Shown one piece after another: positions 1 to 10,255 of a DNA stretch of 20,637 bases (positions within the stretch are counted from its first letter, which is position 1; each line of letters opens with the position of its first letter). The DNA lies in the IMG/VR virus record IMGVR_UViG_3300010885_012727, positions 1 through 20,637 of that record. The stretch is one strand, 5' to 3'. The notes beneath the pieces were generated by a model. That model was not told the origin of the DNA. It searched no databases and worked only from the letters and a program-made list of their open reading frames with translations. Source of the DNA: a virus. The position numbers and the translations under genes are program-made.

Positions 1-463
1 CTGACTTCTTAGGACGTCCGCCCTTCTTAACAGCAGCCACTACATCAGCTACATCAACCTTACCGTCTTCGTTAACGTCGGCAACCTTCTTAACACGAGC
101 CTTGGTCTTCTTAACTTCAGCTACTACAACTTCTTCAACCTTGGCTTCTACTGCCTTAACTTCTTCGACTATTTCTTTTGCTACTTTAGTTTCTGTTTCA
201 ATAAAAGCTGCCAATTCTTCTTTATACTTCGCTACTACAACTTCTTCAATCTTAGCTTCTACTACCTTGACTTCCTCAACGATCTTAGCAACTTCTGCCT
301 TAACTATAGGTGCAGCAGCCTCTTCAACCTTCTTTACTTCAGCAACAATTTCACTCTTTATTTCGGCCGCTGCTTCTGCCGGTGTTTCCTTCTTTACAAA
401 AATCTTATAAACGGCGTATCCAACAATCGCTAGTACAGCCATTCCTACTATTACTGATTCCAT
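1..463 (-). CDS. Membrane-anchored coiled-coil protein with dockerin-like EF-hand loop (C-terminus off the window)
   Basis: The frame reads without a stop from an ATG at 463 down to base 1 (154 codons), so the C-terminus is missing. A ribosome site (AGGAGAAGG, 468-476 on the complement) precedes the ATG. Residues about 2-23 form a single hydrophobic membrane segment (VIVGMAVLAIVGYAVYKIF), followed by KK. Residues about 25-127 are rich in Ala, Lys, Glu and Val with a coiled-coil look, including a repeated block (residues about 62-82 and 99-119). Residues 129-140 (DVNEDGKVDVAD) place D, N, D, D and D at positions 1, 3, 5, 9 and 12 of an EF-hand calcium loop, as in dockerin repeats. A basic GGRPKKS, loosely like an AT-hook, follows. 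The phage role is unknown; insertion in the host membrane with the charged rod in the cytoplasm or periplasm is an inference. It is divergent from the Fe-S carrier gene. Confidence 0.82.
   Translation of the reverse strand, partial: MESVIVGMAVLAIVGYAVYKIFVKKETPAEAAAEIKSEIVAEVKKVEEAAAPIVKAEVAKIVEEVKVVEAKIEEVVVAKYKEELAAFIETETKVAKEIVEEVKAVEAKVEEVVVAEVKKTKARVKKVADVNEDGKVDVADVVAAVKKGGRPKKS
121..281. repeat. Two imperfect direct repeats of about 50 bp inside the coiled-coil gene
   Basis: Bases 121-170 and 232-281 align with only a few differences (both begin CTACTACAACTTCTTCAA). On the coding (minus) strand they encode the related blocks VEAKVEEVVVA and VEAKIEEVVVA. This indicates an internal duplication that lengthened the coiled-coil rod. 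Confidence 0.7.
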
Positions 464-496
464 TTACCTTCTCCTTTTTAGGCTGTTTTATTTAGT

Positions 497-504
497 GATA
501 AATA
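497..504 (+). promoter_or_regulatory. Putative T4-type late promoter (GATAAATA)
   Basis: The octamer GATAAATA differs by one base from the T4 late-promoter consensus TATAAATA. It lies in the 89-bp divergent gap, 49 nt before the ATG of the Fe-S carrier at 553, which leaves room for a short leader. A second A/T match (AATAAATA, 540-547) is too close to the ATG to be a useful promoter. No factor-independent terminator is seen in this gap. Confidence 0.55.
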
Positions 505-552
505 TAGCAGTGGCAAAAAAAATCTTTCACAGGACTTAGAATAAATATCATT

Positions 553-897
553 ATGATAATAAACGTAACTGAATCAGCTAAAAATCATATAGTAAAAGTT
601 CTAAAGGACATGGAAAAGCCATACTTAGTCTTTGGATTAAAGGGTGGTGGGTGTGCTGGCTTTGAATATTTTTGGGAACCCGCAGATCAAGAATTATATG
701 ATAAAAACGGAGATCCAAAACGAGACGAAGTCGTTGATCTCAACGAAGACAAAAAATTAATAATAGACTGTACTAGTTTGGTATATCTATTTGGTAGCAC
801 TATCGACTATAAAAGTGACTTTGTAAGTAGTAGTCTCGTAGTAATTAATCCAAATGCTAAATCAAGTTGTGGTTGCGGTACTAGCATTGCTGTATAA
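553..897 (+). CDS. A-type iron-sulfur cluster carrier (IscA/SufA/ErpA/HesB family)
   Basis: The 114-residue product has the length and architecture of A-type carriers, which hold an Fe-S cluster or iron and deliver it to apoproteins. The three family cysteines are present: C34 in GLKGGGCAGFEY and C106 and C108 in the C-terminal SSCGCGTSIAV. C73 is an additional cysteine. Residues about 46-62 (LYDKNGDPKRDEVVDL) form a longer charged loop than in short bacterial homologues. The ATG has only a weak upstream AGGA (531-534). The stop is 15 nt before the giant fibre gene, so the two are probably co-transcribed. Related carriers are known in marine T4-like phages. The client protein here is unknown: it could be a host enzyme kept active during infection or a phage metalloprotein. 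The family assignment is firm. Confidence 0.93.
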   Translation: MIINVTESAKNHIVKVLKDMEKPYLVFGLKGGGCAGFEYFWEPADQELYDKNGDPKRDEVVDLNEDKKLIIDCTSLVYLFGSTIDYKSDFVSSSLVVINPNAKSSCGCGTSIAV

Positions 898-912
898 TAG
901 GATGGAGTTAAA

Positions 913-3900
913 ATGGTTAAACAGATAATCGACGTTGGTATTACAGGAAATGATGCTACAGGTGATGCCATTAGAGATGCGTTTTCTAAGACAAATAGTA
1001 ATTTTACAGAAATCTATGCAGCTCTAGGAAACTCCGGTGGACTAGCATTTACTGGACTAGTAGGAGCACCTAAACATCTAGTTCCAAACAATATACTAGT
1101 TACTAATCACAACGGAAATGCTCTATTACAAAAAGAACTAGTTGTTGAAGGCGAAGGATTGACTATTGATGCCGCTTCGGATCCTACAAAAATAACTTTT
1201 ACAAACACTGGCGCTAGGATAGTAACTGATACAGCCCCAGCACTCGGAGGTGATCTAGACTCTAGGAGATTTATGATCTACAATCTCCCAGAGCCTGAGG
1301 ATTATGCAACTAGACAACAACAGATTGGTGCAGCAGATCAAGGATCATTTGCTGTTTCTAAAAAGTTTGCCGATCAAAATTATGTACAACTATCAGGTTC
1401 AGCCTTAGTGACCGTTTCTGAACTAGTAGTTGGTCAGTTCTATATCATTGTTAGCTTAGGTACAACCACGAACGATCAATGGAACACTATCGCAGGCACA
1501 ACCGGAGTAACTTATGATGTTGGTAGCACTTTTGTTGCTGCTAGTGTACATACTGATTTTGGAAATGGTACTGCTTATGATAGTATGAGTGGATATTTAA
1601 CAGTACCGGCAGGAGCAACAGGTCCACAGGTACCTCAAAAACAAGAAGTAGTTGGGATAGGCGGAGATACGATGACTGGTCCGTTAATATTGTCGGGCGA
1701 TCCAACAGCATCGAGTGGTCCATATGTCGCAGCAACTAAAAACTATGTTGACACAAATTCTGTCGCTAGCCAAGTAAATTTCTTTGTCAGCCTTAGCGGA
1801 AATGATTATCAACCAGATATTTCGGAAGAAAAGAAAGGCCGAGCATTAGCTTATGCTTTTAGATCACTAGCCAGGGCCTGTGCTGCTGCTGAAAAAATCC
1901 AAGCAGCTGCTGGTATTGAATTAGGTCCTTATCAGAAATTAATAACATACACTTCTGATCAAAAATATATACCGTCTACAATCGCGTCAATAACACAAGT
2001 TGGAATCACTAGTGAATATTATTTAGATATAACAAATAACGGTAACGGAACTATTCCACGCATCGGAACAAATTACGATATACGAGCAGGAATGTTGCTT
2101 TTAGGTAACACAAGTAATACGATAGCAGTTATAGATAACGTTGGAGACATTGACACTGGAACTTCTCTAGAAAGATATACTATACACTATCTCAATGACA
2201 AAACTTTTGTTTTAGGAGAAACATTAACTTATGGCGATCCTATTAAGAAACAGCAGATATCAATACATATAGAAAGCGGAGAATATTACGAGCAATATCC
2301 AATCCGTGTTCCAGAAAATGTATCAATCATCGGCGACGAATTACGTAGGACTATAATACGTCCCAAAAGCGGCGTCAGTGGTAGCAAATGGGCTAATTTA
2401 TTTTTCAGAAGAGATATCACATTTGACGGTGCCGCACCTTTAACGCTTGTAAATCCTATTAAACTAGGCAGTTTAATTGTTGGATTAGAATATACTATAG
2501 CAAGTTTAGGCAGTACTTCGGATCTAGAATGGAACACTATCGCAGGAACAGAAGAGATAGTATATTCAGTAGGGGCTACATTCGTAGCTGCAACAACTGG
2601 AACTCTATCAGCTGGTGATACAGCTGGTACAGTATATTGCGTATATGGATACCATTATCTAACAGATCCAAGCAAGCCAATATATAGCAAGACTATCACA
2701 AATGCTGGCGGTTATAGTAATGCAGTTTCTTTACTAAGAGAAAATAAGGAATTTATAAAAGCAGAAACTGTTGGATATCTAAATGATCGATATCGAGATG
2801 TAATTTTATCATCTGATTCAACAAGCGATAGTTTTACTTGTGTGTCTAATACTAATATGAATGTAGGAATGCCTATAAGATTTTCCAAGCTAACATCTTA
2901 TGTAGTATCATCTAATTCAACTACTGATCAGCTAACAGTTAAATCAACTAGCGGAATGAGCATTGGTCAAACTGTAAAATTTAGTGGTGAACTTATTGGC
3001 GGTGTCGATTCTGTTACTGAATATTTTATTTTAGGAGTTAATTCTGTAGCTAATACATTAGTTATTGGTACTGAATATCCAGGAGTATCAATTGCACTAT
3101 CCAATGGCGCTGGTGCAATGGTAATCACTGTGCAGGATGCAGTTTTCGGCGGAGTTAATTCTGACACAACATATTATGTATTAAACAAAATCGGCGCAGA
3201 TAAGTTTACTATATCTAATAGTATATCAGGATCTGTACCTGGAAACATAGTCCAACTTACAACATCTGCACTAGGCGATGCTGCAATGCAGACTAATTTT
3301 GATTATAATCAAACTACTTGTGCGAGAGATGTTGGACTAATAATAGACGCAATAGCATCAGATTTAATTGATGGTGAATATGTTAGGTCTCTTGAAGCAG
3401 CGATTTCCTATTATTCAAATGCTAGCGGATTGTTGGCTATCGGAGATCAACTGACTCAAACGGCAGCAGCTATAACATATGCAGGAGTATTAATAGGTAG
3501 AGTATTAAATGAAATTCCTCCTGTGGTTTCTTATCAGTACTATACAGCTGATCCAATAGTAATGATTACATCATCATTGATAAACGCAGAAGCGGCTTCA
3601 AAAACTGCTGCTGCTAGTTTAATACAATTGATGTTAGATGTTATCAAGAGTGATAGTTCTTTTAACTTTCCAAGAAAAAATGAAGACATGGATGTGTTCT
3701 TGTTAAACAACGCCAATGTAATGAGGATGTTTACAGCACAAGGACACGGCGGATTTATGGCTGTGTTAGATCCAGAAGGACAGATACTAACAAAATCTCC
3801 ATTTATTGAGATATGCGCCAGTTTTACACGAAGTATCAACAGACAGATATTTGCAGGTGGTATGTTCGTTGACGGCTTCTCAGGAAACTTACCCTGTGTC

Positions 3901-6900
3901 ATAACTGAACATACTAGCGATCAAGTTATAAAAGTATCTTCTGATGCATTTAAGATTAGGAAACCAAATGCGCCCTGTTCGTTTTATATAAACGGCATCA
4001 CATTTTCAGTAGACTACATATCTAATTATAACAAAACAAATGGAACTCTAGTAATACATCTAAACAATAATACAAGAGATGTGTTCACTTATACAAACAA
4101 AGTTTCTAATACTGTACTAACAGTAGGTACGAGATTGGATATAGTTGGTGGTGGTAACAGATCTATGGTTACTACACACTTTACAAATATCAATGATCTT
4201 GGTTATGCTCTTGTAGCCACAAATAATGCGCTTATCGAAGCCGTTAGCATATTCACATATTACAGCTTTAGGGCGTTCTTCTCGCTTAATGGATCACAGA
4301 TGAGGAGCCTAAACAGTTCCAATGCCTATGGTGTGTATGGCATAACAGCAGAAGGTTCGGATCCTACTGAAATTCCTTTCCCAGCTAACTTATATTATCC
4401 AATGACCCAAACTGCTCAAATCTACAGGCAAGGAGCTGTGTCTTCAAAGGGTGAAATAGGAGATATTATATTTTATATAACTGGCTACAAATATCTCCCA
4501 ACAAATACATCCCTGTTAGAAATTGATCACTCCGGCATCATACTTGAATACGAAATACAGCTTGTTAGACAAACTGATACGCCAAATGTTGCACAGATAA
4601 CATTAACAAGTAGCAGTAATTCTTCAGTGTCGGTAGGTACTAGTGCATCTGGATTAGGATACGCAGTTGCTGATGGGCAACCATTAATCATTAGACAGTT
4701 ACAGAATTTTAGATTTAATAACGTCATAAACGTAAATCCTATTAGACCAAGTACTGCACTAGTGTTTGATAATGACGTTGATGTGTATAGGGTCCTTTCT
4801 TATTCATCAGTAGGATTGCCAGCTCAAGAGTCACTATTAACTACTAGCCTTTCATACAATTATATAAAGGTGTTAGCTTCGTTTAGTGCAGGAACAGTTG
4901 CAGGTTCTGGTCAAGTTGGTGACACACAGATACGTATACAAAATTCTCTACGAACTGATGAAATTAGTAGAATCATAGGAAAGACGTTTGCTTGGGGAAC
5001 AAGTGTACATACCATTATAGGCTACGAGTCATATGCAGCTATCAACCAGTCTTATTCTAGGATAACAATTGATACTCCATTGACAAAGTCATTGTTGAAT
5101 AATACTGGATATATCAAAATATATAGTGTCGAACGAAACAGCAGCGGATTAGTAACTATCGTAACAGATGGTAATCATGGTCTTAGTTCATTAAATTATG
5201 TAACTATAGCAAACACATCAGTCGTTGATACGATTAGAACTTATGTGCCAATCACAGTTATAAATGGAACTACATTTACTTTCCAAAGCACAGTGACTTC
5301 AGCTAGTGGCGTGCAACTTGCACCATTAAATTCAACTTGGAGTGTTGGCGGAATAAGTTATACCGGTGGCGTAAGTAATATCATACTTCGATCTGGAATG
5401 AATAATTTCCGTTCTCTCAAGATTGATTATGTTTCTCGTTCTAGTAACGTAGCTACTGTTATCACAGCATATCCACACAATTATAAAGATGGAATACTTG
5501 TTAATGTAAAAGGTGTATCGACCATTGATGATTCCAATCCGGGATTTAATGCTAACGGTGTTTCGATATCTGTCTTTAATGATTATCAATTCTCTTATGC
5601 TAACACCGGTGACAATGTTACATTAACGCCTGCATCAACTGGTGTTATACAAAAAGCCACAACGATAGTACCTTATTCTTTTAAAAGAGATAGTAATATA
5701 ACTACAGTAGTTACAAGTGCTCCGCACGGATTAGTACAAGGCGATACTGTAAGCATCGTTGATAGTGACTATAATCTAACAATATACGGAATATATGGTG
5801 ATATCGGTGACGAAGCACTCAATCATTCTATATCAATAATCCAAAGCTATAGTGATGGGGGCAGTAGTTATACAACCACTAACACTACTACTGGATTAGC
5901 TCCAGGAATGCCTATAAAATTTACAGGAACTGAACTATCATATGCTAACATAGATCTTAGGAACACATATTATATTAAAGAAATAGTTAATTCTACAAGG
6001 ATTAGGATAAGTGAAACAAATATCACTACCGATTGGGCTGTACATACTCTAACTACCCAATCAAATATAAATGCAACTGCATTTGTTGGTTTTGGATTTG
6101 ATGCGCTAAATGTGAACCTAATATCAAGCGATGGCGATACTCAGTTTACTTACGGAAATCAAAACAATAATCAATCTTTAGTTACTAGATCAGTATATCT
6201 ACCAAACGGTATTGTTAAACCAATAGATCCTATCGTGGCTAGAATCACAGTTCTTATCTCTCTAACTCGTTGTACAGGTCACGACTTCTTGTTAATTGGT
6301 ACTGGCGGATTTGCAGATACAAACTATCCAAACAATATATACGGAGCATCAAACAATAAAGCACAAACTGCGAATGAAATCACTGAAGTTGGAAATGGTA
6401 GGTGCTTTTATGTAAGCACAGATCAAAGCGGTAACTTTAAAGTAGGACCTTACTTCTCAGTTGATCAAGGCACTGGCGTAGTTAAATTTGCATCTAGTAT
6501 CGTTCTGACTAATCTAGATGGATTAGGATTTAAACGAGGTGTTGCTATCTCTGCATTTAGTGCAGATGATACGATGCTCAACAATGCTATCGACGAAGTT
6601 CCGACACAGTCAGCAGTAGTTGGTTATCTTAATCGACGTTTAGGTATTACAGAAAGTGGTGGATTATTAACAACTGGTGGTAATATAGGTCCAGGATTCT
6701 TACCACTAGACGGCGGCGCTTCATTTGGTGGTACACTTGATATGGGTAGCCATAGGATCAGCAACTTGGCTGCTCCATCAGCTAACAGCGATGCTGCTAC
6801 TAAGGGATTCGTAACTACTTCTATTTCCAATCTATTATCTACAACAGGTGGTACACTAACAGGAAATCTAAATCTAAACGGACATACTATTACTAACTTA

Positions 6901-9462
6901 GGTTCGCTAGATTTAGGCAATAATAAGATTACAAGCGTTGGAACTCCAACCCTATCAACAGATGCGGTTAATAAGTCATATGTCGATGCTGCTACCTTAA
7001 GCTTCAATTCATTAAGCAAATTAGTAGATACTAGTATACAAACTACAACTAGTTACCTAGCAACTGCGGCTGGCGCTGCAACAGGAAATGGTCCGTATAT
7101 TGTACAATTTGTTATACCTACACAAACTACTGCTCCAACTTCAGGAATAGGATATACTGTATCTGGTAATACAAATACTAACTTTAACGGAACATTTGTT
7201 GCTACATCAACGACTACTACATCTATATCTCTAAGCTATGCATCAAATCCAGGAACATTTAGTACTGCTAGTGCGACTACCCTCTCATATGGTGGTGCAA
7301 GCAGTGGCGACGTGTTGATTTGGAATGGTACTTCTTGGGTAAATTCTACACAATCTGGAAACTTATCTAATACATTCTTGATCCTTCCAGTATCACAAGT
7401 TTCTAGATCTAATAACATAACAACTATCGTAACTGCATCAGCACACGGATTAATCACTGGTGATAAGGCAACCATAAGCGGCCTAGTTGTGAATAGTAAT
7501 AGTAATCCTGGATTCTCAGGAACTTACTCAATAACTAGAGTTGATAATACTACCTTTACATACAGTAATACTGGAGCTTCGCTTAGTTCACTGACTGCGG
7601 TAACTGGAACGGCTACAGCTACATCTAGTGTTGGTAATCTAATACTGCTTTCAACAACTACAAACATATTAGCTAACTCACCTATATCATTTACAGGAAA
7701 CGTTCTAGGTAATATCGTAGCTAATACTAAGTATTGGGTTAATACAGTAGTTTCTCAAACTGCTATACCTATATCACAGTATTCAAGATCGGGCTATACT
7801 GTCAGTATAAACACTGGCGCTCCAAATATCACATTACTTTCGTTCACTAGCAAGATCTTGCAAACTAGCGGACAATATTCTGGACAATATTGGGTTACAT
7901 TCAGTATATCTACTCAGGTCACAGCACCTGCTACTGGTGTAAGTTATATTGTTTCAAATAACAATAATAACAATTATAACGCAACTGTTACTGCTGTAGC
8001 AAGTACTACTACAAGCTTAACATTTACTTACTTAACAGATCCTGGCACATACACCGGTGCTGCTTCTGGTCTTACTCCAAGGGCACAACAACCAATATCA
8101 CATGGACTAGTAAGTGGTCAAGTTGTTACAGTAGCTATAGGCGGATCACCCGTTGATCAAGCTAGCGTTACTGTAACTGTAGTCAATGGAACCCAATTTA
8201 CTTACACATCATTGATATCAGGTACTATAGCTGTAACAAATGCTGTTGGAACAGCTACTCCAAATCCGCAGATCACAATAAGTGCAACACTCGGCGGAAC
8301 TGTATTAACACAAGTTACAGCTACAGGAAGTATGTCGTTTATTGCTTCGGTAGTTGGTTCAATGCAGACACTCAGCGGCACGATCAACAACGGTGTTATT
8401 ACTAACAATATGATTAGCTCAATAGCAGCGATCGATCAAAGCAAACTAAACCTCAGCAGGGCAACAACTGGTCTTAATAATTCCGGTAGTCCCGTAACAT
8501 TCGGCGTGGCTGCATTTAGTAGTAACTACTTTACTTCAACTAACGGATTCGTAGAAATAGCAAACAATGCTATACAGTTATCAAAACTATCAACTATGTC
8601 TACTGGGTATTTGCTAGGAAATATAAGTGGTAACAACAATAACGTCAGTACTGTATTAGTTGATACTGCTAATACTCCAAGCAGTGTTGTATTGAGAGAT
8701 AATTCAGGTAACTTCAGTGCTGGAACTATAACTGCTACATCTTTTGTAGGTAACGTAACAGGTAACGTAACAGGTAACGTAACAGGAACTGTTACTGGAT
8801 CAGTAGCGGCATCAAACTTAACTGGAACTACATTAGCTGGAAACGTAATATCATCTAGCTTAACAAATCTAGGAACACTAGTTAGCTTGACGATTAGTGG
8901 TAACATACTTCCAACTACTACTAGCACATCAAACCTAGGCAGTTCTAGCATATACTGGAGCAATGCTTATATCAACACACTCAATATAGGTACAACTATA
9001 GTTCCGAATGCTAATAATACATTAAACTTAGGTAGCAGCAGCTACGCTTGGAACACGATATATGGTAATGCAACTTCAGCTAACTATGCTGACTTAGCAG
9101 AAAACTATGAAGGTGATCAAGAGTACGAAATCGGCACTGTAGTAATGATAGGTGGTGACAAGGAAGTGACCCTAGCCAAGGGTTTTGGAACTACTAAGGT
9201 AGCAGGTGTTGTTTCTGAAAATCCAGCACATTTAATGAATGCACAATGCCCTGGAATAAAAATACCAGTAGCACTAACGGGTCGCGTACCTTGTAAGGTT
9301 GTTGGTAAGATTAGCAAAGGTGATTTATTAGTTGTTAGCATTATTCCTGGCGTGGCACAGGCTAGTGAGGATCCAAAAGCTGGCAGTATCATTGGAAAAG
9401 CATTAGCCAATTATGATTCTGATAGGATTGGAACAATTGAGGTGCTAGTTGGTAAGCACTGA
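913..9462 (+). CDS. Giant modular tail-fibre/adhesin-like virion protein (2849 aa)
   Basis: The ATG follows a GGAG site (904-907). Modules seen in order: (1) residues about 6-37, a docking-type N-terminus (GNDATGDAIRDAF..TNSNF); (2) phage fibre repeats of the type GGDTMTGPLILSG...AATKNYVD (about 250-278); (3) a region with GRALAYAFRSLARAC (about 310-325); (4) a pectin-lyase/beta-helix-like stretch with ESGEYYEQYPIRVPENVSII (about 453-483) and a block containing QGHGGFMAVLDPEGQILTKS (about 940-960); (5) several NHGL/PHGL-type beta modules (nt 5128-8240); (6) two further fibre repeats (nt 6700-7000); (7) a GNVT repeat; (8) paired NLGSSS..W..IYG motifs (about 2680-2720); and (9) a C-terminal domain from YADLAENYEGDQEYEIGTVV that resembles the C-terminal, sometimes autoproteolytic, domain of other phage fibres. 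It probably binds the host surface as a trimer. No catalytic site is assigned. The gene is intact and has no internal stop. Confidence 0.9.
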   Translation: MVKQIIDVGITGNDATGDAIRDAFSKTNSNFTEIYAALGNSGGLAFTGLVGAPKHLVPNNILVTNHNGNALLQKELVVEGEGLTIDAASDPTKITFTNTGARIVTDTAPALGGDLDSRRFMIYNLPEPEDYATRQQQIGAADQGSFAVSKKFADQNYVQLSGSALVTVSELVVGQFYIIVSLGTTTNDQWNTIAGTTGVTYDVGSTFVAASVHTDFGNGTAYDSMSGYLTVPAGATGPQVPQKQEVVGIGGDTMTGPLILSGDPTASSGPYVAATKNYVDTNSVASQVNFFVSLSGNDYQPDISEEKKGRALAYAFRSLARACAAAEKIQAAAGIELGPYQKLITYTSDQKYIPSTIASITQVGITSEYYLDITNNGNGTIPRIGTNYDIRAGMLLLGNTSNTIAVIDNVGDIDTGTSLERYTIHYLNDKTFVLGETLTYGDPIKKQQISIHIESGEYYEQYPIRVPENVSIIGDELRRTIIRPKSGVSGSKWANLFFRRDITFDGAAPLTLVNPIKLGSLIVGLEYTIASLGSTSDLEWNTIAGTEEIVYSVGATFVAATTGTLSAGDTAGTVYCVYGYHYLTDPSKPIYSKTITNAGGYSNAVSLLRENKEFIKAETVGYLNDRYRDVILSSDSTSDSFTCVSNTNMNVGMPIRFSKLTSYVVSSNSTTDQLTVKSTSGMSIGQTVKFSGELIGGVDSVTEYFILGVNSVANTLVIGTEYPGVSIALSNGAGAMVITVQDAVFGGVNSDTTYYVLNKIGADKFTISNSISGSVPGNIVQLTTSALGDAAMQTNFDYNQTTCARDVGLIIDAIASDLIDGEYVRSLEAAISYYSNASGLLAIGDQLTQTAAAITYAGVLIGRVLNEIPPVVSYQYYTADPIVMITSSLINAEAASKTAAASLIQLMLDVIKSDSSFNFPRKNEDMDVFLLNNANVMRMFTAQGHGGFMAVLDPEGQILTKSPFIEICASFTRSINRQIFAGGMFVDGFSGNLPCVITEHTSDQVIKVSSDAFKIRKPNAPCSFYINGITFSVDYISNYNKTNGTLVIHLNNNTRDVFTYTNKVSNTVLTVGTRLDIVGGGNRSMVTTHFTNINDLGYALVATNNALIEAVSIFTYYSFRAFFSLNGSQMRSLNSSNAYGVYGITAEGSDPTEIPFPANLYYPMTQTAQIYRQGAVSSKGEIGDIIFYITGYKYLPTNTSLLEIDHSGIILEYEIQLVRQTDTPNVAQITLTSSSNSSVSVGTSASGLGYAVADGQPLIIRQLQNFRFNNVINVNPIRPSTALVFDNDVDVYRVLSYSSVGLPAQESLLTTSLSYNYIKVLASFSAGTVAGSGQVGDTQIRIQNSLRTDEISRIIGKTFAWGTSVHTIIGYESYAAINQSYSRITIDTPLTKSLLNNTGYIKIYSVERNSSGLVTIVTDGNHGLSSLNYVTIANTSVVDTIRTYVPITVINGTTFTFQSTVTSASGVQLAPLNSTWSVGGISYTGGVSNIILRSGMNNFRSLKIDYVSRSSNVATVITAYPHNYKDGILVNVKGVSTIDDSNPGFNANGVSISVFNDYQFSYANTGDNVTLTPASTGVIQKATTIVPYSFKRDSNITTVVTSAPHGLVQGDTVSIVDSDYNLTIYGIYGDIGDEALNHSISIIQSYSDGGSSYTTTNTTTGLAPGMPIKFTGTELSYANIDLRNTYYIKEIVNSTRIRISETNITTDWAVHTLTTQSNINATAFVGFGFDALNVNLISSDGDTQFTYGNQNNNQSLVTRSVYLPNGIVKPIDPIVARITVLISLTRCTGHDFLLIGTGGFADTNYPNNIYGASNNKAQTANEITEVGNGRCFYVSTDQSGNFKVGPYFSVDQGTGVVKFASSIVLTNLDGLGFKRGVAISAFSADDTMLNNAIDEVPTQSAVVGYLNRRLGITESGGLLTTGGNIGPGFLPLDGGASFGGTLDMGSHRISNLAAPSANSDAATKGFVTTSISNLLSTTGGTLTGNLNLNGHTITNLGSLDLGNNKITSVGTPTLSTDAVNKSYVDAATLSFNSLSKLVDTSIQTTTSYLATAAGAATGNGPYIVQFVIPTQTTAPTSGIGYTVSGNTNTNFNGTFVATSTTTTSISLSYASNPGTFSTASATTLSYGGASSGDVLIWNGTSWVNSTQSGNLSNTFLILPVSQVSRSNNITTIVTASAHGLITGDKATISGLVVNSNSNPGFSGTYSITRVDNTTFTYSNTGASLSSLTAVTGTATATSSVGNLILLSTTTNILANSPISFTGNVLGNIVANTKYWVNTVVSQTAIPISQYSRSGYTVSINTGAPNITLLSFTSKILQTSGQYSGQYWVTFSISTQVTAPATGVSYIVSNNNNNNYNATVTAVASTTTSLTFTYLTDPGTYTGAASGLTPRAQQPISHGLVSGQVVTVAIGGSPVDQASVTVTVVNGTQFTYTSLISGTIAVTNAVGTATPNPQITISATLGGTVLTQVTATGSMSFIASVVGSMQTLSGTINNGVITNNMISSIAAIDQSKLNLSRATTGLNNSGSPVTFGVAAFSSNYFTSTNGFVEIANNAIQLSKLSTMSTGYLLGNISGNNNNVSTVLVDTANTPSSVVLRDNSGNFSAGTITATSFVGNVTGNVTGNVTGTVTGSVAASNLTGTTLAGNVISSSLTNLGTLVSLTISGNILPTTTSTSNLGSSSIYWSNAYINTLNIGTTIVPNANNTLNLGSSSYAWNTIYGNATSANYADLAENYEGDQEYEIGTVVMIGGDKEVTLAKGFGTTKVAGVVSENPAHLMNAQCPGIKIPVALTGRVPCKVVGKISKGDLLVVSIIPGVAQASEDPKAGSIIGKALANYDSDRIGTIEVLVGKH
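1405..2620 (+). repeat. Duplicated 'WNTIAGT' insertion module in the giant fibre gene
   Basis: Two related segments of about 55-60 residues are inserted at nt about 1405-1570 and 2461-2620. Both follow the pattern VG..Y.I.SLG.T....WNTIAGT...Y.VG.TFVAA. The second copy interrupts the beta-helix-like region. At DNA level the cores are close (TGGAACACTATCGCAGG occurs in both, at about 1480 and 2529), which suggests a fairly recent duplication or gene conversion. Confidence 0.75.
5128..8240 (+). repeat. Dispersed 'HGL' beta modules and a paired 'TAP-SG' module in the giant fibre gene
   Basis: At least five segments follow the pattern (S/N)x(V/I)xT(I/V)VT...HGL..G..V.I.......ING.TFTY. They are centred near nt 5175 (NHGLSSL), 5470 (PHNYKDG), 5720 (PHGLVQGD), 7445 (AHGLITGD) and 8097 (SHGLVSGQ). 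A separate module occurs twice, at about 7096-7290 and 7888-8079 (QTTAPTSGIGYTVS against QVTAPATGVSYIVS, each followed by a D/NPGT(F/Y) stretch). These are degenerate protein-level repeats that make up much of the fibre shaft. Confidence 0.7.
8749..8796 (+). repeat. 12-bp tandem repeat encoding GNVT
   Basis: Three exact copies of GGTAACGTAACA (8749-8784) are followed by a diverged fourth unit (8785-8796), giving GNVTGNVTGNVTGTVT near the C-terminal part of the giant fibre protein. Copy number could change by slippage without breaking the frame. Confidence 0.9.
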
Positions 9463-9493: not shown

Positions 9494-10255
9494 ATGGCTA
9501 TTCAATATGTTAATATCGGAAATGTAGTAAACGACGGTACAGGCGATGACTTATTCACGGCCTTTTCAAAAGTAAATCAAAATTTCCAACAGATTGATTT
9601 TGCACAAGCACAAAATAATACAGCGTCTAATCTTGGATCAGGATTAGGACTCTATAAAGAAAAACTTGGGCCCGATCTAAGATTTAAGTCACTAAAGGTC
9701 GGAGCTGGCTTACAATTAGTAAACAATGACAACGATATAACGATACTTAATACATCCAATAATGTTGGTTCTATACACACCGATTCTGGTACATATTCTC
9801 CTAGTGCTCCAAGCAGTTTGGTAAATTTCCACGGTGGAACTAATATGAATGTCTCCCTAAGTGGAAATACCATAACATTTAATAGTACGTTTACTGTATT
9901 CGATGACAAAACTCCTAGACTAGGCGGCAATCTAGATCTCAACAGTCATAATATAACTGGAAGCGGTAATGTTACTTCAACTGGGTTTTATGGCCCACTA
10001 ACAGGAAATGTTACAGGTAATGTTACTGGTAATGTTACTGGTAATGTTACTGGCCTAGTAAATGGATTGGATGTTTCTTTGCTAGATAAATCATTATCTG
10101 GTTTTGATTTTGGATCAATTGTACAAAAAGACATATCGCCTGAAACTAATTTCATTGGATGGCTTATAGCTAATATACAGATAGATTTGGGATCATTTGC
10201 TAACCCTATTACATCGTTTAGTTTAGGATCAACAGTTGACGGCGGAACAGTATGA
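9494..10255 (+). CDS. Short tail-fibre-like virion protein with docking N-terminus (253 aa)
   Basis: The N-terminus (VNIGNVVNDGTGDDLFTAFS..NQNF, residues about 6-32) is a close relative of the giant protein's N-terminus and of a motif common at the start of marine T4-like phage structural proteins. After a beta-rich middle come a fibre repeat (PRLGGNLDLNSHNI, about 143-156), a GNVT tandem repeat (about 171-186) and a C-terminal part with two similar halves (LSGFDFGSIV... and IQIDLGSFANPI...SLGS). It lacks the C-terminal domain found on the giant fibre. The ATG at 9494 follows GAGGA and an exact late promoter. The stop overlaps the next ATG (ATGA), so translation is probably coupled. It may be a fibre base, a connector or an alternative short fibre; the sequence does not decide which. 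Confidence 0.85.
   Translation: MAIQYVNIGNVVNDGTGDDLFTAFSKVNQNFQQIDFAQAQNNTASNLGSGLGLYKEKLGPDLRFKSLKVGAGLQLVNNDNDITILNTSNNVGSIHTDSGTYSPSAPSSLVNFHGGTNMNVSLSGNTITFNSTFTVFDDKTPRLGGNLDLNSHNITGSGNVTSTGFYGPLTGNVTGNVTGNVTGNVTGLVNGLDVSLLDKSLSGFDFGSIVQKDISPETNFIGWLIANIQIDLGSFANPITSFSLGSTVDGGTV
10004..10051 (+). repeat. 12-bp tandem repeat encoding GNVT (second gene)
   Basis: One GGAAATGTTACA unit is followed by three exact GGTAATGTTACT units, encoding GNVTGNVTGNVTGNVT. It gives the same peptide repeat as at 8749-8796 but with different synonymous codons (AAT/GTT here, AAC/GTA there). Confidence 0.9.

Follow-up and report, generated by a model that had tools for sequence, protein, structure and literature searches.

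A dockerin-type loop in an apparently uncatalogued family of small phage membrane proteins

Gene X and its surroundings

The window, that is, the whole stretch of DNA analysed here, is an entire virus record of 20,637 bases, and its first gene, here called gene X, runs on the minus strand from an ATG at 463 to the contig edge (1..463, -), where it is clipped, probably one residue short of its stop. An in-frame TAA and the ribosome-binding site AAGGAGA (469..477, -) precede the start, and the frame is stop-free to the edge, leaving 154 residues visible; the same ribosome-binding motif lies upstream in 34 of the 74 clusters of the family described below, against 0.4 expected. The protein opens with a membrane helix (395..460, -; residues 2-23 of MESVIVGMAVLAIVGYAVYKIFVKK), for which an N-out/C-in orientation is predicted, followed by a helical rod rich in V, A, E and K (83..382, -; residues 28-127) with two copies of a 53-nt direct repeat that are 87% identical (120..172 and 231..283, -). 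Behind the rod stand the dockerin/EF-type loop DVNEDGKVDVAD (44..79, -; residues 129-140) and the visible C-terminal residues VVAAVKKGGRPKKS (2..43, -), which comprise a short post-loop helix and a basic end. The visible protein ends in KKGGRPKKS, in which GGRPKK (5-22, -) is AT-hook-like, and this tail is short, with a net charge of about +5 over the last 14 residues. A preliminary description of this DNA had proposed one membrane helix, a duplicated rod and a near-canonical loop, and all three were borne out down to their coordinates (helix 2-23, 53-nt repeat, DVNEDGKVDVAD). The structure prediction that it had suggested as a check yielded long helices at residues 28-49 and 53-130, though at low confidence (AlphaFold, mean pLDDT 60). 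We assign this architecture, and membership of the family, with high confidence.

The conserved divergent neighbour of gene X is an IscA/HesB-like gene (PF01521; 553..897, +). It is followed by a very large ORF (913-9462) of 2849 aa, Ser/Thr/Asn-rich and fibre-like, and the same order is repeated in L003 (relatives found in IMG/VR are cited by L numbers). Upstream of gene X lies CTAAATA (489..495, -), which is like a T4 late promoter and like the cyanophage late motif NATAAATA, and a divergent ATAAATA (498..504, +) faces the IscA-like gene; such a divergent pair was found in 18 of the 74 clusters. Late promoters read TATAAATA in T4 and NATAAATA in cyanophage (PMC2984593). TAAATA stands upstream of the family gene in 50 of the 74 clusters, at about -21 to -40 in 41 of these 50, compared with 25% of control ORFs overall and 34% of those with a ribosome site. 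Since the upstream element resembles the late promoters of T4 and cyanophages, late expression of gene X is likely. Another TATAAATA occurs in the window ahead of a structural-looking gene at 9494.

A family of small loop proteins in uncultured phages

IMG/VR was scanned with degenerate DNA encoding the loop peptide ADVNxDGK(V/I/M)DxAD, and at least 80 stretches were found. Nearly all of them encode proteins of 55-131 aa that combine a membrane helix with one to three loops and with a basic tail rich in A, K and T; in a few the N terminus is clipped or the membrane helix gives way to a short amphipathic one (MLEFFKKLFGR), and only L047 is clearly a different protein. With a looser pattern, small transmembrane proteins accounted for 44 among the 107 ORFs listed, and tiny amphipathic-helix forms were also recovered. 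Including loop-less relatives there are at least 130 members, all metagenomic and many of them fragments, which form 74 clusters at 85% identity; the cluster representatives have no loop in nine cases, one in 31, two in 33 and three in one, frequencies that derive from pattern scans and are not estimates of abundance, from clusters that are not phylogenetically independent. The family, hereafter family X, is present as one copy in each of 17 large records searched. The window protein shares with it the N-terminal helix, membrane or amphipathic, with positive charges after it, and among the gene orders that mark the family (IscA divergent, UvdE convergent or Dps downstream) the window has the divergent IscA, its other side lying beyond the contig.

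When six members were run by tblastn against 50,697 phage records, nothing matched beyond a single weak and partial alignment, confined to residues 2-22 of a 45-aa loop protein (E 0.2); a DNA search with positions 1-8000 of the window among phages gave no match, and we found no PHROG or Pfam family for family X. The matches listed from bacterial and archaeal genomes that were confirmed (at least 16 loci) were all ordinary dockerins, matched mainly over the dockerin stretch, and no full-length cellular relative appeared among them. A literature search on phage dockerins and on phage islands with SOD, UvdE or Fe-S genes returned nothing describing the gene X protein. Judged by sequence, family X is a widespread and apparently uncatalogued family of phage membrane proteins, new and built from known modules. 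Many uncultured phages have such a small protein, in which a calcium module like that of cellulosomes is joined to a membrane anchor and to a tail of DNA-binding-like character; a gene that recurs near SOD, IscA/IscU, UvdE, Dps, prohead protease or lysis genes gains a name and a test.

The looser pattern has a second class, consisting of large phage proteins with LDPVGKED(S/D)DVNNDGKVDxxDxYLKxRR (L145, L149, L175, L193, L195 and others). Minimal proteins of 36-38 aa (L142, L197, L202, L235) reduce the plan to an amphipathic helix with a single DVNFDGKVDIxD loop and a tail of lysines (MKNFFIKIWNIITFQDVNFDGKVDIKDKFVKAKKKSKK).

The loop and its relation to dockerins

The loop DVNEDGKVDVAD holds the full EF-hand/dockerin coordinating set (positions 1, 3, 5, 9 and 12, with Gly6) and, residue by residue, the type I dockerin signature D1, D/N3, D5, G6, D/N9, D12; the loop pattern arises once in 200,000 shuffles of the window protein. 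The best Pfam domain for it is Dockerin_1 (PF00404), at 16.8 bits and so below the gathering threshold of 22.9. Two-loop relatives with a 28-residue spacing, which occupy a position equivalent to that of the window protein, mostly reach 35-53 bits against this same cut-off, the exception being L094 with 20.1, and the family profile matches solved dockerins at E 5e-7. AlphaFold models of a two-loop relative were of low confidence, as for the window protein, and Foldseek returned no significant fold match, its top hit being the dockerin 2ccl_B (E 0.81). In 25 two-loop proteins, 92% of the differing codons at the coordinating positions of loop 1 are synonymous; the share is 38% for the rest of loop 1, 31% for the membrane helix and 39% for the tail. 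Loop 2 was left out of this comparison as fixed by the search pattern, and loop 1 was itself loosely constrained, the two-loop proteins having been picked by a regular expression. On this codon evidence, the coordinating acids of two-loop members are under strong purifying selection.

The proposal in the preliminary description of a phage membrane protein with a genuine dockerin-type loop thus gains support from the two-loop relatives above the Dockerin_1 threshold, from the alignment with dockerins and from the selection on the coordinating acids. As far as profiles and residues can tell, the loop and the relatives deserve the name dockerin, but the window protein as a whole does not, because it falls below the Dockerin_1 cut-off and has one half-site. 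Binding of a metal by the predicted loop is rather probable. Compared with type I dockerins (PF00404; C. thermocellum 1daq, 4fl4), the family shares the DxNxDGxVDxxD loops with a helix after them, and many relatives have two loops. It differs in that the window protein has one calcium loop where a type I dockerin has two, each with its helix; in the relatives the loops are spaced by 17, 21 or 28 residues, whereas the dockerin linker is longer, and family X is membrane-anchored, probably cytoplasmic, attached to no enzyme and without a cohesin in the 17 records. EF-hands and other Dx[DN]xDG loops (PMC3123361) have the same coordinating pattern, and gain, loss and movement of such loops within a protein is possible; in the window protein, however, no entering helix of the EF-hand type is seen, and the loop sits in the low-complexity rod of a phage membrane protein.

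A facultative and movable loop

The nearest relatives in IMG/VR include L003, L015 and L019, which have the IscA-like gene divergent on one side and UvdE convergent on the other. Together with L141 they share the C-terminal end of the window protein, GGRPKK(S/T)(V/A) and then a stop, one residue beyond the contig edge. These ends led us to reject a second loop left of base 1, which the preliminary description had suggested looking for. Relatives that share the end have their stop one residue further on, so that a single loop is expected, and the full-length product almost certainly has about 155 aa and one loop.

These relatives differ in the loop itself. At the positions aligned with the loop, L003 and L019 have KEKKAVKVKA(T/E)E, where lysine or alanine stands in place of the acids (KEKKAVKVKATE versus DVNEDGKVDVAD). 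L015 keeps every loop acid at the same position as the window; between the two, the non-coordinating positions 4, 8 and 10 have changed, and coordinating position 1 has changed silently only. In L141 a full loop comes immediately after the membrane helix, away from its position in the window, and this protein forms a bridge between subgroups, joining the post-helix loop of the two-loop group to the rod and tail of the window protein VVAAVKKGGRPKKSV. On a tree built from the IscA proteins next door, which are about 87% identical, presence and position of the loop are scattered, so that gain, loss or relocation of the loop separates phages that are this close in the neighbouring gene. From these comparisons the loop is facultative and movable in the clade of the window and conserved where present, and since the close relatives L003 and L019 lack it, the core function cannot depend on it. 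The preliminary description would have given up its reading had the loop proved isolated and its acids unconserved in homologues; the loop is indeed single, and two of the four closest relatives (L003, L019) lack the acids, but L015 keeps them and L141 has a full loop.

Topology and the basic tail

Over the 74 clusters, K/R residues number five ahead of the helix and 173 within the 12 positions that follow it, and 73 of the 74 clusters agree. Applying the positive-inside rule to this charge pattern, we infer that the rod, loop and tail are cytoplasmic; an N-out/C-in orientation with the tail inside is, by charge, quite likely. In some loop proteins a short amphipathic helix replaces the membrane helix (MLEFFKKLFG, MKNFFIKIW), and such forms, which have no signal peptide, would bind the membrane from inside. 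Calcium loops of the Dx[DN]xDG kind are mostly extracytoplasmic, and the exceptions are chiefly EF-hands and calcium blades (PMC3123361); a cytoplasmic placement of the loop therefore sits uneasily with what is known of them. If the loops do bind calcium inside the cell, the family would be a rare candidate for phage use of intracellular calcium.

Across the family clusters the net charge of the final 30 residues has a median of +9, and GR(K)P, an AT-hook-like core, is found in 21 of the 74 tails, against a shuffle mean of 0.19. In being A/K/T-rich and in this core the tails are like those of histone H1-like and AT-hook proteins; they differ in that Pfam AT_hook (PF02178) gave no match at E<=10 in six members, a search in which HMMER filters can drop such short motifs, and DNA binding is putative.

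Gene neighbourhoods

Four settings recur. In setting A, X is flanked by IscA, IscU and an Fe/Mn SOD to one side and by UvdE to the other, and is encoded on the opposite strand; the lineage of the window has IscA without IscU and SOD. In setting B, X lies directly upstream of a Dps-like ferritin (PF00210), which is followed by a long protein that often has an LDKNHNGKLD loop; Dps is the adjacent same-strand downstream gene in 14 clusters, and in L007, L010 and L011 start and stop overlap by 8 b. Setting C has X directly behind a gp21-like head maturation protease (six clusters), and setting D near a holin-like or spanin-like gene. Dps, UvdE, SOD, IscU or IscA is nearby in 45 of the 74 clusters and none of them in the other 29. 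Since neighbourhoods differ between phage groups, no one pathway is indicated: by gene order, this variety speaks against a single enzyme pathway and favours a task that is general, late and linked to the membrane, or a gene mobile from phage to phage.

The block IscA-IscU-SOD-[X]-UvdE, which combines Fe-S assembly, superoxide removal and UV repair, is a recurrent phage arrangement (L085, L092, L108; about ten family clusters). The long charged protein after Dps has the EF-type loop KKLDKNHNGKLDxQDFKMLR (L010:4849-6048, L013:4702-6495, L014:5506-6678), so that setting B has a second loop protein near X.

Proposed role and rival explanations

The reading that accounts best for the whole, to which we give a little less than an even chance, is a late inner-membrane tether with a basic tail on a polyanion and a calcium-stabilised loop as a structural module. 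A T4-like phage would make the gene X product, a small inner-membrane protein, probably late in infection. Its single helix would serve as the anchor, with the N terminus outside and the remainder in the cytoplasm, so that the rod and one calcium-binding dockerin half-site point inward and the basic tail comes at the end. In the most likely mechanism the tail would grip a polyanion and hold it at the membrane, the polyanion being phage DNA or else an acidic protein of the prohead or scaffold; the loop near the tail, clamped by Ca2+, would act as a structural hinge or a site of self-association. The tethering mechanism taken by itself is tentative, and on balance we would not expect it to hold. 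T4 proheads begin on the inner membrane, aided by the viral chaperone gp40 (PMC9958956), and the prohead factors found there (gp40, portal initiator) are like X in being membrane-bound and late, with a gp21-like protease as neighbour of X in six clusters; the likeness is one of setting alone, and setting C as a link to assembly is suggestive, no more.

A rival to this tether is that calcium plays no part in the loop of the window protein, which would then be a fast-evolving charged spacer with a neutral or decaying remnant of a loop. Its absence at the same place in L003 and L019, its shift in L141, its scatter on the IscA tree and the sub-threshold Pfam score of the window all fit; but the window and L015 retain every coordinating residue while positions 4, 8 and 10 have changed and one coordinating codon has changed silently, and the loop acids of two-loop members are strongly selected, so that we consider a remnant unlikely. 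An accessory lysis protein would also be late and single-span, its charged tail tuning the action of holin or spanin, possibly with Ca2+ sensed as the membrane leaks. Here one can point to L209, where X follows a small membrane protein with two spans and an Rz-like spanin (phrog_8821, E 1e-9) lies two genes further on, to L214, where the next gene matches a holin family, to the late-type promoter element, and to the general likeness with Rz-like i-spanins (phrog_739, phrog_8821), which are small phage proteins from late genes with one N-terminal membrane helix and a long helical rod. That similarity is weak, however: L015 has phrog_739 as its top hit at E 0.03, and the window protein matches no such profile. 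Moreover, i-spanins are N-in/C-out, the opposite of the topology that the charge pattern predicts for X, and the basic tail and calcium loops belong to X; only a few of the 74 clusters lie near lysis genes, and the neighbours in the lineage of the window are IscA, SOD, UvdE or Dps. A lysis role is in our view improbable.

Those neighbours suggest instead a DNA-protection and iron/oxidative-stress island, in which X would hold Dps or DNA at the membrane or handle metal for the Fe-S, SOD and Dps neighbours. The 45 clusters with such genes nearby speak for it, as does the adjacent Dps of setting B with its 8 b overlaps. The 29 clusters with none of these genes do not; in the SOD/UvdE setting X is opposite in strand to both flanks, as expected of an independently inserted gene, and dockerin/EF loops prefer Ca2+ over iron, which leaves this explanation about as doubtful as lysis. 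Less probable again is a phage-specific family of calcium switches. The loops would be disordered at the low Ca2+ of a cell whose membrane is intact; once a breach lets Ca2+ in, they would fold and alter the grip of the tail on DNA or on assembly intermediates, which would report membrane damage or set the time of late events. The loops would then be interchangeable cassettes that lineages add, move and drop. The weakest rival, and a very improbable one, is a classical dockerin, through which a phage or host protein with a cohesin would dock at the membrane. The Dockerin_1 homology of two-loop members favours it, and cellular dockerins are the only cellular matches among those listed. The window protein, however, has a single half-site on the predicted cytoplasmic side, and cohesin (PF00963) gave no match at E<=1 in the phage records of 17 relatives, which measure 57-358 kb each and whose completeness is not established. 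Because of this lack of cohesin and of a charge pattern that places loop and tail in the cytoplasm, classical docking is unlikely, and the calcium-dependent protein docking put forward in the preliminary description finds no support.

Other proteins beside the family

Small phasin-like proteins without a Pfam or PHROG match lie beside loop-less and other members (L005:4712-4903, L008:4598-4813, L232:1749-1967). The phage Fe/Mn SODs beside the family have F-rich N-terminal extensions (MTLHFIKFLNEN, MYNFIKWATLQE; L092:3366-3926(-), L065:892-1452(-), L057:953-1516(-)). These recall the capsid-targeting peptides of T4, and similar starts are seen on PNK-like and other neighbours (L011:3383, L024:3378, L004:1960); by analogy, enzymes with such extensions may be packaged in the virion.
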